A stretch of 64,000 nucleotides of DNA from assembly GCA_963971535.1 (NCBI GenBank), contig OZ020591.1, positions 13,175,577-13,239,576 on the forward strand. Reading direction: 5' to 3'. The position numbers were made by a program, and so were the translations under genes. Shown here in pieces: positions 53,651 to 60,734 of this stretch. The stretch is from Notolepis coatsorum. Its lineage: Eukaryota > Chordata > Actinopteri > Aulopiformes > Paralepididae. A model generated the notes under the pieces. That model did no database searches. It worked only from the letters and a program-made list of their open reading frames with translations, and had not been told where the DNA came from. Positions within the stretch are counted from its first letter, which is position 1, and the number at the start of each line of letters is the position of its first letter.

Positions 53651-54440
53651 ATTGTGTTACTAGCATTAACTCATTGACTGCTGTTTTCGGGCCCGTCTAA
53701 GCACTGCCACGCTTTAAAAGATAGGAGTCCATCACCTTGTTTGTAGAGCTATAACTATATTCTATATTATAGCTATGGATACAATACTATGGTCATTTGA
53801 CAGTGACTTTCTTCCGGTCAATAATTTGTCCATGCATACATTCGCGCATTATACCGTGGTGCATATAAGTATGTTTTTAGATTGGCCTGGGGTAATGCTG
53901 AGGAATAGCCTTATGCGTGTATTATACTATAACTGTTGCTGTTTCTTGCCTGGACCAGCTATTATTCTCAAATCAAATCTATATCATAGGTATTATGTTT
54001 CATCATGAATACATGAAGGGGGGGGGGGGTCGTTTTTTGATGCTTTGATCGTCACCAACGGCATATGTTGTGGAGTAACATTACACACACGTTCAGTTCG
54101 AGGTGAAGGCATGGTTGGATCAACGCAAGATTGATATCATATAGCCCTTACCTTGACTAGGATGTACCTCAAAAAGAATATTCTAATTATCTGATCGTGA
54201 TTCCAAGTATTGATGTCTATCGTGTCGCCAACATAATCCACCACACATCATGCATCGGGAGCATTTGATTCTTCTCAATCCGACTGTTATAACCGCTAAA
54301 AAAAGCTAACCCGGAGACATTTCATCGACGCACAGGCCAAGATACAAGGTTTCATAGGGTGCTTGATACCGCCGTCTAGCTGGATGCTGCTGCCGGTATT
54401 GCACTTTGGCGATCTCAGACTCATTCCCTATGGTAACGCC

Positions 54441-54787
54441 AAGGTTAGTCTATTTGCCAACACAATGAACCCGGAAAGTTTGCAACCACCAAACTTTTAT
54501 GATCGATATGGATAGTATGGGTCATCAGTACTTAGAAACTGCCGGATGCTAAGTTGTACATGTTGGTCAATTTTTTAATTTTTATAATTAGCACACATTT
54601 GCATTATCACCTAAAATGGACAAATCTCGGAAACTACTTGATCAATTTCAACAATGTTGGAGGGGTTTTGGTGGTTATTCGGGATGCTGAATCCATTTAT
54701 GATACTCAAGAGTTTCGATATTGCAATATTTACTGGAATTTACCAAATTTCAACTCATTTTTGTGCAATTTTGGTGCATTTTCAGTC
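54441..54787. repeat. Left subterminal inverted repeat
   Basis: It contains AAGGTTAGTCTATTTGCC and GACAAATCTCGGAAACTACT. The partner is at 59415-59795, at roughly 80 percent identity by eye. Confidence 0.8.
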
Positions 54788-55229
54788 AATTAGAAAGTTT
54801 TAGAGGATACTTAAATGATTACATTTGGACAGCACAGACATTATGTATTCACAATATCTCTACTGACTCCAAATAGTTCCTATGGTAATGTCATATTGTC
54901 ATAGTACAGTAGATACTAGATAGGCAGGTGTATAAAGATCTGCGTTGTCAAGACAAATACTCAGATGTGAAGGGCATCCGCTATTTTATTTACTACCTGT
55001 AACGTCACAGCAAATTGGAAAAACACTAAACCTGGTCAAACTGTGTTCCTTAATACAATAACATAGCTTAATAAAACAGAAATAACAAAAGAAAGGTATT
55101 TACATTACTCAAGCATATAGGCCACAAAATAACAATATGCGCTTCCTCCTACTGCCTAATAATAGATAATTACTTGTTTTGGATTGTAAGTCTTCCTGAA
55201 ACTTCTCACTCAGAAAGTGGCTACTGTGT

Positions 55230-58006
55230 TCAGAACTCTGAATCCACATCATCAAACTCCTCATCATCAAACTCCTCCCCACTGTCTTCATCTTCCTCTG
55301 AATTTACTTTAATGTCATCTTCTTTTTGCTGCGAGTGTGTCAGTGAGTTGCAACATGTGCTGTCATTGCCTTTCAGGGCTGTACGTTAACTTTTTTTGCA
55401 CATAGCACTGGTGCTACAGAGGTTGATAGTTTTGTAGCACAGGCCAAAATCTTGTAGCACAAGTATAAAACGTGTTATATTTGTAACAGTCACAAATGTG
55501 CCTATTGTATTTGTGTTATTTAGTTGCAGTGCCATGTTTGGCTGTCATTTAGTATATCGCCATGTGTTATTATTACTATAATAGTAATACTCTCATATGC
55601 TATTTTCAATTAATATCATAAACAACATAAGGAATATTAGCATAATTTTGAGTGGACTGAAGGAATGAGTCAGCGTTAATAGTTTTAAATGCAAATAATT
55701 TATTGAAACATAGAAGTGGGGTCGGTTGGGACACACACACACACACACACAATGGGGGACCCTGATGTAAACAAGACGAAAGTCTTTCTCTGGTCTGCAT
55801 CCCCTTAACAATTGTGTGTATTGAGCCGTACTGTACTGTACCCATTCTGCAATCTGTTAAATAAAGTTTACATTCATTCATTCACACACACTGTTTCAAC
55901 TCACCACCCCCGCATCATATTGTAGTCTAGTCTTCAAACTTCCACTCCTCTCGAAATTTTTTATATTTGAATATCAACATTATCTGTCCATCCTCAGTTT
56001 ACTATAATATACTCCTGTCCTGAGTCCTGACTAGTGACTTCATCGTCTTTCCAAACGCACGCACACACACACAGGGAAGGGGAGAGAGTGCCCCCCATTT
56101 CCCTTTCCACACTGTGTCTGCTGGCTCTGCCTGATCAGGATTAGCTTGTTAGCTTGCTAACGTTGTAGTGATTGTAATGGTACATAAACGTTAATTTCGG
56201 GCGATGTGCGCATAAAGGAATGGCGACGGTGCAAAGCATGTAGATGCATTTGACCCGTTGCGAGAAAAAAAAAACACACCGGACTTATTTCGGGACGTGT
56301 AGGCGCACTGCTGTGTGCGCACCAACACGCTGCTCTGCTTGCAAGCACGGATAGGGCGGATATGACTCGTCGAGTTGTCACGGAGTTTTTTCAAAATAAG
56401 AGTATCATATGCACCTGAATGTTGCTAGCTGTCGATCCTAGTTATTATAGCTGGAGCTGCGCGTGGGCAGAAATGAGACCCGCTACAGGATTTTCAAAAT
56501 AAGAGTATCTATATGAACCGAATCCCTATCGCACCAGTGCTAGTGAAGTAAATCCATCCATCGCACAGACAGCTGTTGCTGTAGCACGTGCGAGATATAT
56601 GTCGCACTGTACACCCCTGCCTTTGCAGAAGCAGTAGTTGGCGTCAAGCTTTGTCAGACGAGGTAGTTTTAGTGACATGACCCCACCACCAGGAGTGGCT
56701 CCTCCAGGGAAGAGAATACCTGCAGGATTCTGCACAAACTGATGAGTGGCCATGGCATGAGTCGTGCGGCACCGTTCGGTGTGAAGACCACAAGATCAAA
56801 ATTGTCACCCCAACTGTGGATGGGGCCAATCTGCCTCTCCAACTGTGCGCAGATAATTATCTGGGTCCTCTGAAGCATATTTGGCAGCTGACTTCCGGAA
56901 CCGTATGACTTCATCGTAGGTGGTGACAATGCCATGCTCGTTAAGATTCTTGACCAGCTCTGTGCTACCATATTTATGGTGGAGTCTTACGGCAAGCCCC
57001 AGGGTTGTCTGATTCCAGCTCCCACTGATGTGCTGCTGGATGCACTGAGCGAGCGTAAGTGATGGTTTGGTCACTTTTCCTTCCTTTGATACCAGACAGG
57101 AGACAAACTTCAAAAGGGATGGACTTGTGGCTTGTATGATCTTGTCATGCTGGAAGCTGCCAAGGTCATATTCACGGTGCAAGGGAATATTCTGCACCTC
57201 AGCTTGCACTCTCTTCACAAGCTTGGTGATAAAATCATCAGCTGCAGTGGTTTTATCTCGTTTTACCAGTTTGAGTGACTTGAGTGTGTGAGTTACTCAT
57301 GGAATGTCTGGCACCCTTCCACCCTCATGACAGCTACAGCATCACCATAAAAGTCACACAAGTTAACTGCAGAGGTGCCCGGAGTTGGCTACATATATAT
57401 CATGTAACTCTGACACTGTCCAGGTTGATGACTTGTCTGCATTCATGTGGTCAATGACAGCAGCTAAACAGCTATCAAACGGTCTGCACTGGGAACTTCC
57501 ACTTGAGGAAACTCTCTTGAAGTCATCGTAGCACTTGGTGTGATACTGGGCATCAGCTGCATGCAGGTCCAGGGAGGCATTTACCCGTAGAGCCACTTCC
57601 TCAGCCCATTGATCCTGGCGCTCATCACATTTAGACAAGATGATGTTTTTGAAGGATGGCTTCCTGGTCTCTCAACAGTCTGGCATTGTTTCACTGGCTT
57701 CCATCTATCAGGGTGTTTAGTGTCTTTGGGTTCGCAAATGATACCACAAAACAGACATTGTTTAGAAAACTCAAAGGCACCATCAGATGAGCTGAGTTTG
57801 CGTTTGGTTGCATTTCTAGACTTAGAAGTATATGAGCTATAACATGATTTGTGACAAACTACAGATGCTGACACACCATGTGTTGTAGCTGAATCGTCAA
57901 GCTCTTCACTCCTCTGAAGCAAAGCTGTAATGCCTTTTGGTCCAGATGTCTTGAAGTCATTGTCCTTGCCATCACAGGGCTCGAATAAGAATTTCTTCCT
58001 TGACAT
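55230..58006 (-). pseudogene. Uncharacterised multi-block protein, degraded
   Basis: The start is taken as the ATG at 58006, just after an acceptor-like TTCATTTCAG. Blocks in order: an N-terminal Cys-rich part (V-V-C-H-K-S-C-Y...C-L-F-C-G-I-I-C); then K-C-D-E-R-Q-D-Q-W-A and A-D-A-Q-Y-H-T-K-C-Y; then S-L-T-L-A-Q-C-I-Q-Q-H and L-G-L-A-V-R-L-H-H-K-Y-G-S; then G-D-N-F-D-L-V-V-F-T-P-N-G; then an acidic C-terminus ending at 55230. I recall proteins with these motifs as widespread, unnamed and multicopy in fish and cnidarian gene sets, without known function. Four frame breaks (about 57660, 57295, 56820, 56770) and a 1.25-kb hAT insertion make it non-functional. A role as a transposition protein is inference from its position only. 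Confidence 0.7.
55374..56619. mobile_element. 1.25-kb hAT with 5-bp duplication
   Basis: Ends CAGGGCTGTACGTTAAC and, inverted, CAGGGGTGTACAGTGCGAC. CCTTT is duplicated at 55369-55373 and 56620-56624. Removal restores the reading C-F-C-K-G-N-D-S of the surrounding gene. Five-base duplications fit the hAT5-like group. Confidence 0.85.
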
Positions 58007-58371
58007 GTCAATCTGAAATGAACAAAAGAAGAATGCACTATTTGTATCCTCCGTCTCTGCACTACCACACACTCTACATTACAGAGCAATATGGATACAT
58101 TGCCAGGATGTACATTTCAGACGGGCTGTTCACTATTCCAATGAAAACATGTATTTCCCATGTTATTGGTATCCTACATGAACAAACTGGTATTTGCATT
58201 ACCTTTTGGGTCTCTTTCTCTGCCTCAGTGCCTCAGATCTTCTATCACACAATTCTACATTAAGGAGAGCAAAAGTACCATATGAATACTCTATACAATA
58301 TTTAGAATCAAACTAGATGCTTCTCTGTGTGACGAGGGATAAAGCCTGGTGACGCGAGGCTAGGTAATAAC
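58007..58371. other. 5' flank of the uncharacterised gene
   Basis: No further exon was recognised. It runs into the hAT MITE at 58372. Confidence 0.4.
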
Positions 58372-58756
58372 TAGGGATGTCCGATATTATCGGCCTACCG
58401 ATATTATCGGCCTACCGATATTATCGGCCGATATTGGCATTCAAATGTGATATCGGAAAATATCGGTATCTGTTTAAATATATATATATTTTTTTTATTA
58501 CATTTCTATAACCTTTATTTACCCAGGCAAGCAAGTAAGAACAAATTCAGATTTTATCTATTGTCAAAAGTATGCATAATGTTGTGTTAATTCCACAACA
58601 AGAGATATGTAATGTTAATTACCTGAAATTATTCCGTTTTTGGGGAGGGGGGGGGGGAACCCTGCATATATCGGTTGATATCGGTATCGGAAATTAAGAG
58701 TTGGACAATATCGGTATATCGGTATCGGTAAAAAAAGCCAATATCGAGCATCCCTA
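58372..58756. mobile_element. 385-bp hAT MITE, TAGGGATGTCCGATAT
   Basis: Termini TAGGGATGTCCGATATTATC and, inverted, TAGGGATGCTCGATATTGGC. The 8-bp duplication GTAATAAC lies at 58364-58371 and 58757-58764. The interior repeats CCGATATTATCGGCC. Confidence 0.95.
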
Positions 58757-58764
58757 GTAATAAC

Positions 58765-59414
58765 GGGTAATAATCACACATTCATGTCATGACATACATT
58801 GCTAACATAGCTAAGCTATGCTTGCATTAACATTAGTTACCGTCAGATGGCTAACGTTAACCCTAAGAGCTATCTTACTACAGCTTGTGATCATATTATA
58901 TTCAGTGTTTGTTATTGGATAGTAATAAAACCACAGTTTGTGTATCCGTTTCTATTTTCTCAACTTACTTGCATTGAAACAACAATCCTTGAAAATCAGG
59001 GGTCTGTATTTGCTGCAGCTGCTCGTTGCCACAGTAGGAATGAGATCATGGTGCAAATTAGCCACTACAAGTTTTGCGTTAACGATTAGCGCACTGAAGT
59101 CTAGGTCAAGGCTAGGAACTGGGGTTCTGAGGAAATTTTATAAGGTAACAGTCACAGTCATTCTGCAATCTGTTAAATAAAGTTTTCATTCATTCACATA
59201 CAAAAATCCAATAGAATAGTTTCTAGTTGTGGCAGCAAACTGCTCCGCTGCCACGTGGACTCATGGCAGAGCTGCATCAGTTACCCCAGTAACCAAGCAT
59301 AAGCACCTAGAGTACCCCATTAGGCGCTATACAAATTAAAGTTATTATTATTATTATCATTCTGTTTACAATTGAACATTCCATGAAAATTATCTCTAAA
59401 TTCAGCATCTTCTG
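58765..59414. other. Interior of the TTAA element
   Basis: It holds a short LINE-A tail (CATTCTGCAATCTGTTAAAT at about 59160) and another LINE or SINE end at 59305-59358 (GGCGCTATACAAATTAAAG followed by (ATT)n). No gene. Confidence 0.5.
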
Positions 59415-59795
59415 AAACATTTATAAACTGAAAATTCATAAAAAAATTGCACCAAAATTAGTAGAAATTTGGTAAATTCCAGTAAATATTGCAATTTTGA
59501 AACTGGTTTCTTTTAAGTATCATAAATGGATTCAGCATGCTGAATAACCCCCCAAAACAACTCCAACATTGTTAAAATTGATCAAGTAGTTTCTGAGATT
59601 TGTCCATTTAGGTGATTATGCAAATGTATGCTAATTATGCAAATAAAATAAGTTGCCCAACATTTACAACTTAGCATCCGGCAGTTTCTGACTGCTGGGG
59701 ACCCGTACTATCCATATCCATCAAAACTTTGGTGGTTCCGAAATTTCCGGGTTCACAATGGGGCTCTATGGGATGGCAAATAGACTAAGGTCCCC
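59415..59795. repeat. Right subterminal inverted repeat
   Basis: Inverse partner of 54441-54787, with GGCAAATAGACTAAGG and AGTAGTTTCTGAGATTTGTC. Confidence 0.8.
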
Positions 59796-59923
59796 AGATG
59801 AATAATGAATACAAATATTTGAAAAAAAGGAAAAACGATCAAATAACTTATATATACGTGGTTGGCGTTTAACGGTTGTCCGCCAAACACGTATATAAAC
59901 GTGGTTTGCGTCCATTGAGTTAA

Positions 59924-60219
59924 GAACTAATTCAAGATTAACAAGGGCCTCCAAGAGCATCAAAAGAAAGCTGCAATTTCTCAATGGCCAACTGAACAGA
60001 ATCAACAGTACGCAATTGTATCATCAAAATACAAATGGAAATTACATCCGTACAAAGAAGAAACAATATGATTGATGTAGATCGTAAAAAGGACACCCAA
60101 AACGGAACCTTGCGGCATACCTTTAGTTATGGACAGAAATTCAGATTGGGCTTGACCCAACTTCACACACTGACGCCTAGAAGATAGATAATCCCGAAAC
60201 CAGACACAGGCATTACCAT
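59924..60219 (-). pseudogene. LINE-B segment 2 (reverse transcriptase core)
   Basis: On the minus strand it reads A-C-V-W-F-R-D-Y-L-S-S-R-R, then K-G-M-P-Q-G-S-V-L-G and the catalytic box Y-F-D-D (Y-A-D-D in intact elements), with later stops. It joins the 63636 segment when the hAT is removed (G-L-D-G-N-A-C-V-W-F), and the 53650 segment when the TTAA element is removed. Confidence 0.92.
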
Positions 60220-60734
60220 TAGAGCTGCCGCGGTATTGATGTTTTCCTTACCGCACAAATTTGCGAAATATTTCCTACCGCTGCGGTTATTACCGCACAC
60301 ACACACACACACACAAAAAAAAAGGTTTGAATGCATTTTTTTTGTAGTCTACTCTTTATAGCAGGGCTATTCAACTAAATTGTTCAGGGGGCCACATTGT
60401 CAGAAACCCAAGGAGCCAGGGGCCGGACTGCCACGGCGCCTCCCTGTGCTATGAATATATGTACACTTGACACAACACGCAACAACATTTTCACAACTTT
60501 TATTTAACTACATTGCAAAAGTAGTATACTTTTCAAAAAAAGTGCTTCATTTATGTGCCACATCTGCAACATCTCCTGCAGAAAGTGCGGCAACAACAGC
60601 AAATCACAGCATCTTATTAGCACTTATTGTCCACTCTTAACTCTCAAACATCAGGGGGGTGGGGGGCAGACAGGCCTAGCCTACATACACACATCTAATG
60701 AGAGCGATTGCACTTATTTGACTGGGCAATGGCA

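Follow-up and report, generated by a model that had tools for sequence, protein, structure and literature searches.

Kolobok and piggyBac are TTAA transposons, and the nuclease of Academ transposons is of the XPG type. Academ also includes the cnidarian and molluscan DNVDHN proteins. In the excerpts of the published accounts used here, AcademX elements have target-site duplications of 3 or 4 base pairs (bp) and AcademH elements have duplications of 9 or 10 bp, a difference tied to the encoded nuclease and helicase (PMC10045372); Academ elements have a mean length of 5,565 bp in bivalves (PMC10294476) and are documented from zebrafish, medaka, and stickleback (PMC4746887). Herein, a stretch of 64,000 nucleotides from the 3.42-gigabase genome of Notolepis coatsorum (C23:13175577-13239576, called the window) was analyzed. 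An initial annotation had described positions 53666-59923 of the window as one TTAA element with a gene relic between long inverted repeats, and had suggested that the gene family may travel as cargo or as the mobility protein of a TTAA-targeting transposon. Comparison with paralogous loci splits the features of this interval between two elements, one inside the other. A gene-bearing transposon is nested in an older, unrelated TTAA element, and the repeats of about 350 bp and the gene are both parts of the inner element. With high probability, the inner element at 54446-59787 is a DNA transposon copy that is dead and has lost internal sequence; its inverted ends are about 350 bp long, and it is most likely Academ of the AcademX type. 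It appears to be mobile DNA of an already known type and not something new. The two elements and their boundaries are listed below.

53670..59919, no strand assigned: outer short TTAA element, TTAA-flanked, about 0.9 kilobases (kb) without its insert (53670-54445 plus 59792-59919)
54442..54445, plus strand: left target-site duplication AGGT, by comparison with the empty sites
54446..59787, gene on the minus strand: inner transposon, Academ-like, 5,342 bp in this copy, absent from the paralogous loci L013-L016; its termini TAGTCTATTTGCC/GGCAAATAGACTA are common to other copies
54446..54815 (end approximate), plus strand: long terminal inverted repeat on the 3' side of the gene, from repeat alignments and a search of the host's own genome
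59400 (approximate)..59787, minus strand: long terminal inverted repeat on the 5' side of the gene, from repeat alignments
59788..59791, plus strand: right target-site duplication AGGT, by comparison with the empty sites

The individual features reported by the initial annotation were recovered. TTAA is present at both ends (53666-53669 and 59920-59923), followed by inverted termini of the CTCA type, CTCATTGACTGC on the left and CTCAATGGACGC, reverse-complemented, on the right. The inverted repeats align with 84% identity over 361 columns (E 4e-102, BLAST) or with 318 of 365 positions identical (MAFFT), well beyond chance, and the minus-strand gene relic contains the three quoted motifs, spread over several frames. 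The joining of these features into one unit did not hold. The TTAA ends are those of the outer element, and the element with the gene has its own ends, TAGTCTATTTGCC.

Four paralogous loci carry the outer element free of the insert: L013 and L016 on C23, L014 on C21, and L015 on C32. The match to the window runs up to 54445 in all four and restarts at 59787 in L013-L015 and at 59829 in L016. The joint at the empty site is CGCCAAGGTCCCCAG in 4/4, and the order in the window is CGCCAAGGT-TAGTCTATTTGCC ... GGCAAATAGACTA-AGGTCCCC. Since the empty sites read CGCCAAGGTCCCCAG and AGGT stands at either end of 54446-59787 in the window, this interval is an insertion flanked by a 4-bp duplication, AGGT. 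Readings of this duplication as 2, 3, or 5 bp were dropped, since the symmetric TAGTC ends give 4 bp. At a further locus, L049, window position 54445 is joined to 59799 without the inner element, less cleanly than in L013-L016. Also on C23, the segmental duplicates L009-L012 include the insertion.

The duplications around other gene copies were then compared. Four of six other copies have both ends, with 3-bp duplications GGA, GAT, TAT, and TGT; in the remaining two (L031 and L033) the 3' end is cut. TTAA, the duplication of Kolobok and piggyBac, flanks the gene-bearing element neither in the window nor in any of the four two-ended copies. The outer element resembles Kolobok and piggyBac in being TTAA-flanked, whereas the inner element is not TTAA-flanked and has other termini. 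With its own ends TAGTCTATTTGCC and 3- to 4-bp duplications of varied sequence, the gene-bearing transposon does not target TTAA. A single TTAA-targeting transposon, holding the repeats and the gene in the same unit, is barely conceivable: TTAA does stand on both sides with the gene between, but the outer element is kept without gene and repeats at the four empty loci (and, less cleanly, at L049), and the two-ended gene copies have four different duplications, none of them TTAA. The empty sites refute this single-unit view, and they rule out the variant in which the gene is cargo of a TTAA element. The earlier proposal stands in that the gene is carried by a transposon, where it is best read as the mobility gene, and falls with respect to TTAA targeting.

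The linkage between the gene and the repeats was examined across the genome. A search with the gene's protein gave at least 153 matches (150 of 410 candidates scored). The gene adjoins the same terminal repeats in 6/6 copies of the first set, which includes L029-L034; L035-L037 were later additions for their protein sequences, and their ends were not examined. When an 800-bp piece at the expected place was inspected in eight further copies, the 5' repeat was found in four, one of them without the first 10 bases. In the opposite direction, the window's own 3' repeat as query gave at least 40 places (40 scored of 717 candidates), a sample that leans to window-like copies. The gene lies within 8 kb on the expected strand at 36 of these 40 matches, and at least five of the 36 share one insertion, that of the window, through segmental duplication. 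The distance is 702-977 bp in 29 of the 36, and 911-925 bp in 16. The spacing between gene and repeats is near-constant, in a unit that is not TTAA-flanked.

Better-preserved gene copies exist elsewhere in the genome. L029 (6,909 bp) contains an open frame of 1440 codons, which starts right after a stop and is without about 22 first codons that are visible in L030; L030 is itself broken further downstream. L029 and L030 are full-length copies with 98.8% identity across 6.9 kb. The full-length protein has about 1,460 residues and is the single protein in the copies of about 6.9 kb, most of which the gene occupies. The L029 protein has Cys/His motifs in its N-terminal half; the GDNFDLVVFTPNG motif is located at 405, the XPG-like block spans about 1008-1300, and the tail is Cys-rich from 1364 onward.

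A second family accounts for about 95 of at least 136 matches, at 28-30% identity (134 of 1767 candidates scored). Its member L042 aligns to the whole L029 protein with 25% identity (E 2e-96) and has ADNVDHN at the position of GDNFDLV in L029. L042 and L047 share 99.4% identity across 4.7 kb, and the second family is abundant and apparently young. The frames of this second Academ-like family reach 1467 codons, and the inverted arms of L047 are about 390 bp. Three acids are conserved in both families: the D of GDN, the D of TFD-x-x-LY, and the E before an AAGH motif. These acids fit a DDE triad and are candidates for it, as judged from the alignment.

The many broken copies and the lack of a name from the family models could also be explained if the gene were a captured host gene, a passenger of a non-autonomous element. 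This explanation is extremely improbable in view of the at least 153 genome matches, the share of the 6.9-kb copies taken up by the gene, and the second family, which is 25% identical and has the same protein plan at about 95 scored places.

The block behind the transposase-like core was compared with nucleases. All six sequences share the AD, DTD, HA-x-x-GCDT, and G-x-GK positions without variation; the same holds for the D and FD motifs in the five sequences that reach them. In profile searches of PDB, four Exonuclease 1 sequences rank top, with E 0.1-0.29 for one profile and E 0.056-0.12 for another. The block resembles the XPG/FEN nucleases, such as Exonuclease 1, in its collinear FD..S.K..ER.RR and SGCD..S..G.G motifs, but differs from them in being joined behind a transposase-like core and in a sequence match below significance. 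The relative L043 gave a sub-threshold match to Pfam 5_3_exonuc_N (E 0.11), and no Pfam XPG model matched. The XPG/FEN-like assignment of the block rests on these motifs and is suggestive.

The comparison with AcademX is favorable in several respects. The duplications are 3 or 4 bp long (AGGT in the window; GGA, GAT, TAT, and TGT in 4/6 copies), a single large protein includes a nuclease-like block, and the size is similar. AcademH belongs to the same superfamily (PMC10045372) but differs in its 9-10 bp duplications and its helicase, in contrast to the 3-4 bp here and the absence of any Pfam helicase match to the L029 protein.

Several observations weigh against the identification as an Academ transposon or against the strict linkage of gene and ends. 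The Academ name is provisional, resting on duplication length, the nuclease-like block, size, and general knowledge of Academ. The Exonuclease 1 matches are below significance (E 0.056-0.12), and the four are variants of one protein. An hhalign comparison with the host's XPG-type exons gave a probability of 0.9%; the same alignment sets ILSDDTDVFVL opposite TITDDSDVWLF. No Pfam or NCBIfam model matched the L029 protein. The 5' repeat was not found in 4/8 further copies within the 800-bp piece. No gene match lies within 8 kb of 4/40 repeat matches, where absence may reflect a missing row since 111 gene rows of the protein search were used in this comparison, and in one of the 36 the gene lies only at 7,558 bp and may be a chance neighbor.

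The sub-significant XPG similarity would also suit an undescribed superfamily with the same anatomy. We consider this unlikely, as the 3- and 4-bp duplications together with the nuclease-like block fit AcademX as given in the published excerpt (PMC10045372). Other searches gave no alternative name. Nothing rose above the Pfam cut-off for the relic pieces or for the L029 and L042 proteins, and PHROGs gave nothing useful for the protein. Single-sequence phmmer against PDB gave no meaningful match, and tblastn in phages gave none. Two stretches in viral_contigs fit a pattern, neither encoding a relative.

For the Academ-like element, a pathway of movement can be proposed. The Cys/His-rich N-terminal half would probably bind the element ends. 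The transposase, having bound the long ends, would excise the element and join it to the target at a 3- or 4-bp stagger. The DDE-like core, with the D of GDN, the D of TFD, and the E before AAGH as candidate acids, would act as the catalyst, and the nuclease block would help in processing the ends. Copies without the middle of the gene would be moved in trans. One such deleted copy landed in a TTAA element lying in a repeat beside reverse-transcriptase sequence, and later duplication spread the block along chromosome C23. The nesting, the ends, the duplications, the association of gene and ends, the internal deletion common to several copies, and the coding content are observed; catalysis, the separate roles of the blocks, movement in trans, and the Academ name are inferred.

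The copy in the window carries an internal deletion and is dead. Its gene remnants and the insertions within it are as follows.

55299..55373, minus strand: relic of the Cys-rich C-terminus (residues 1394-1418), by match to a longer copy
55374..56619, no strand assigned: later insertion of 1.25 kb, classed as hAT-like from its CAGGG ends (termini CAGGGCTGTAC/CAGGGGTGTAC), with CCTTT as the 5-bp duplication
56640..57937, minus strand: relic of the N-terminal half (residues 2-460 of the L029 frame) in several frames, stopping after the first conserved core D (GDNFDLVV)
58372..58756, no strand assigned: insertion of 385 bp with an 8-bp duplication GTAATAAC and termini TAGGGATG, hAT-like by its ends

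Residues 461 to about 1388 are missing from the window copy, and this internal deletion is common to other copies. The 5.3-kb copy L032 lacks what lies between the first D and the nuclease block. A larger deletion, joining residue 460 to about 1389, is found in L033, L034, and the window alike, as is the 385-bp insertion. L033 and L034 each have their own flanks, so the defective subfamily has moved at least three times. It was presumably moved by proteins made elsewhere. A 41%-identical member (L035:4474-6006) has another internal deletion, which puts the Cys-rich tail directly behind the N-terminal half, as in the window subfamily.

In the recurring deletions the N-terminal half and the Cys-rich tail are kept and the putatively catalytic middle is lost. 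The KP derivatives of the P element offer a comparison for self-repressors. One could suppose that the L029 and L042 types form a superfamily of their own, apart from published Academ, with a DDE core and a FEN-type nuclease working together at very long ends; the recurring deletions might then have been favored as self-repressors. This is quite improbable, and the broken frames of the window subfamily in the copies read weigh against the self-repressor idea.

The 385-bp insertion is common to the 4-kb subfamily, being present in L033 and L034 and not in L029-L032. It contains internal CCGATATTATCGG repeats, and a related copy is found in L016. L009, L010, and L012 lack the 1.25-kb insertion and continue uninterrupted across the joint, and a member of the insertion's family begins inside L051. 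Within the 1.25-kb insertion, a 134-bp repeat (55751-55884) has nine more copies of at least 100 bp across the window.

The outer element was compared with its own relatives. In four diverged copies (C6, C4, C1, and C44), which were examined for TTAA ends and not searched for the inner repeats, TTAA stands 14-19 bases ahead of the point where the alignment starts, with a similar end after it, in 4/4. The left-end DNA is multicopy, with at least 40 matches (40 scored of 3848 candidates). The alignment with L013-L016 continues past the TTAA sites into a flanking repeat. A reverse-transcriptase match is adjacent at 60002-60247 (Pfam, E 1.5e-07), the sole passing piece in a scan of the relic pieces and this neighbor. 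The continued match and the adjacent reverse-transcriptase sequence suggest that a retroelement probably surrounds the outer element. Several left-end copies, in the same orientation and with 95-98% identity, are found at about 12.6-16.6 megabases of C23. Seven of these (L002-L008) also have flanking sequence in common, which points to local segmental duplication on C23.

With these results, a multicopy gene family left unnamed by the general protein libraries searched here gains a probable name and home. They also illustrate that nesting can make the ends of one element pass for those of another. The near-identity of the 6.9-kb copies points to recent movement, which would open the nuclease block's role to testing. 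In animal genome annotation, such relics may be counted as host genes.

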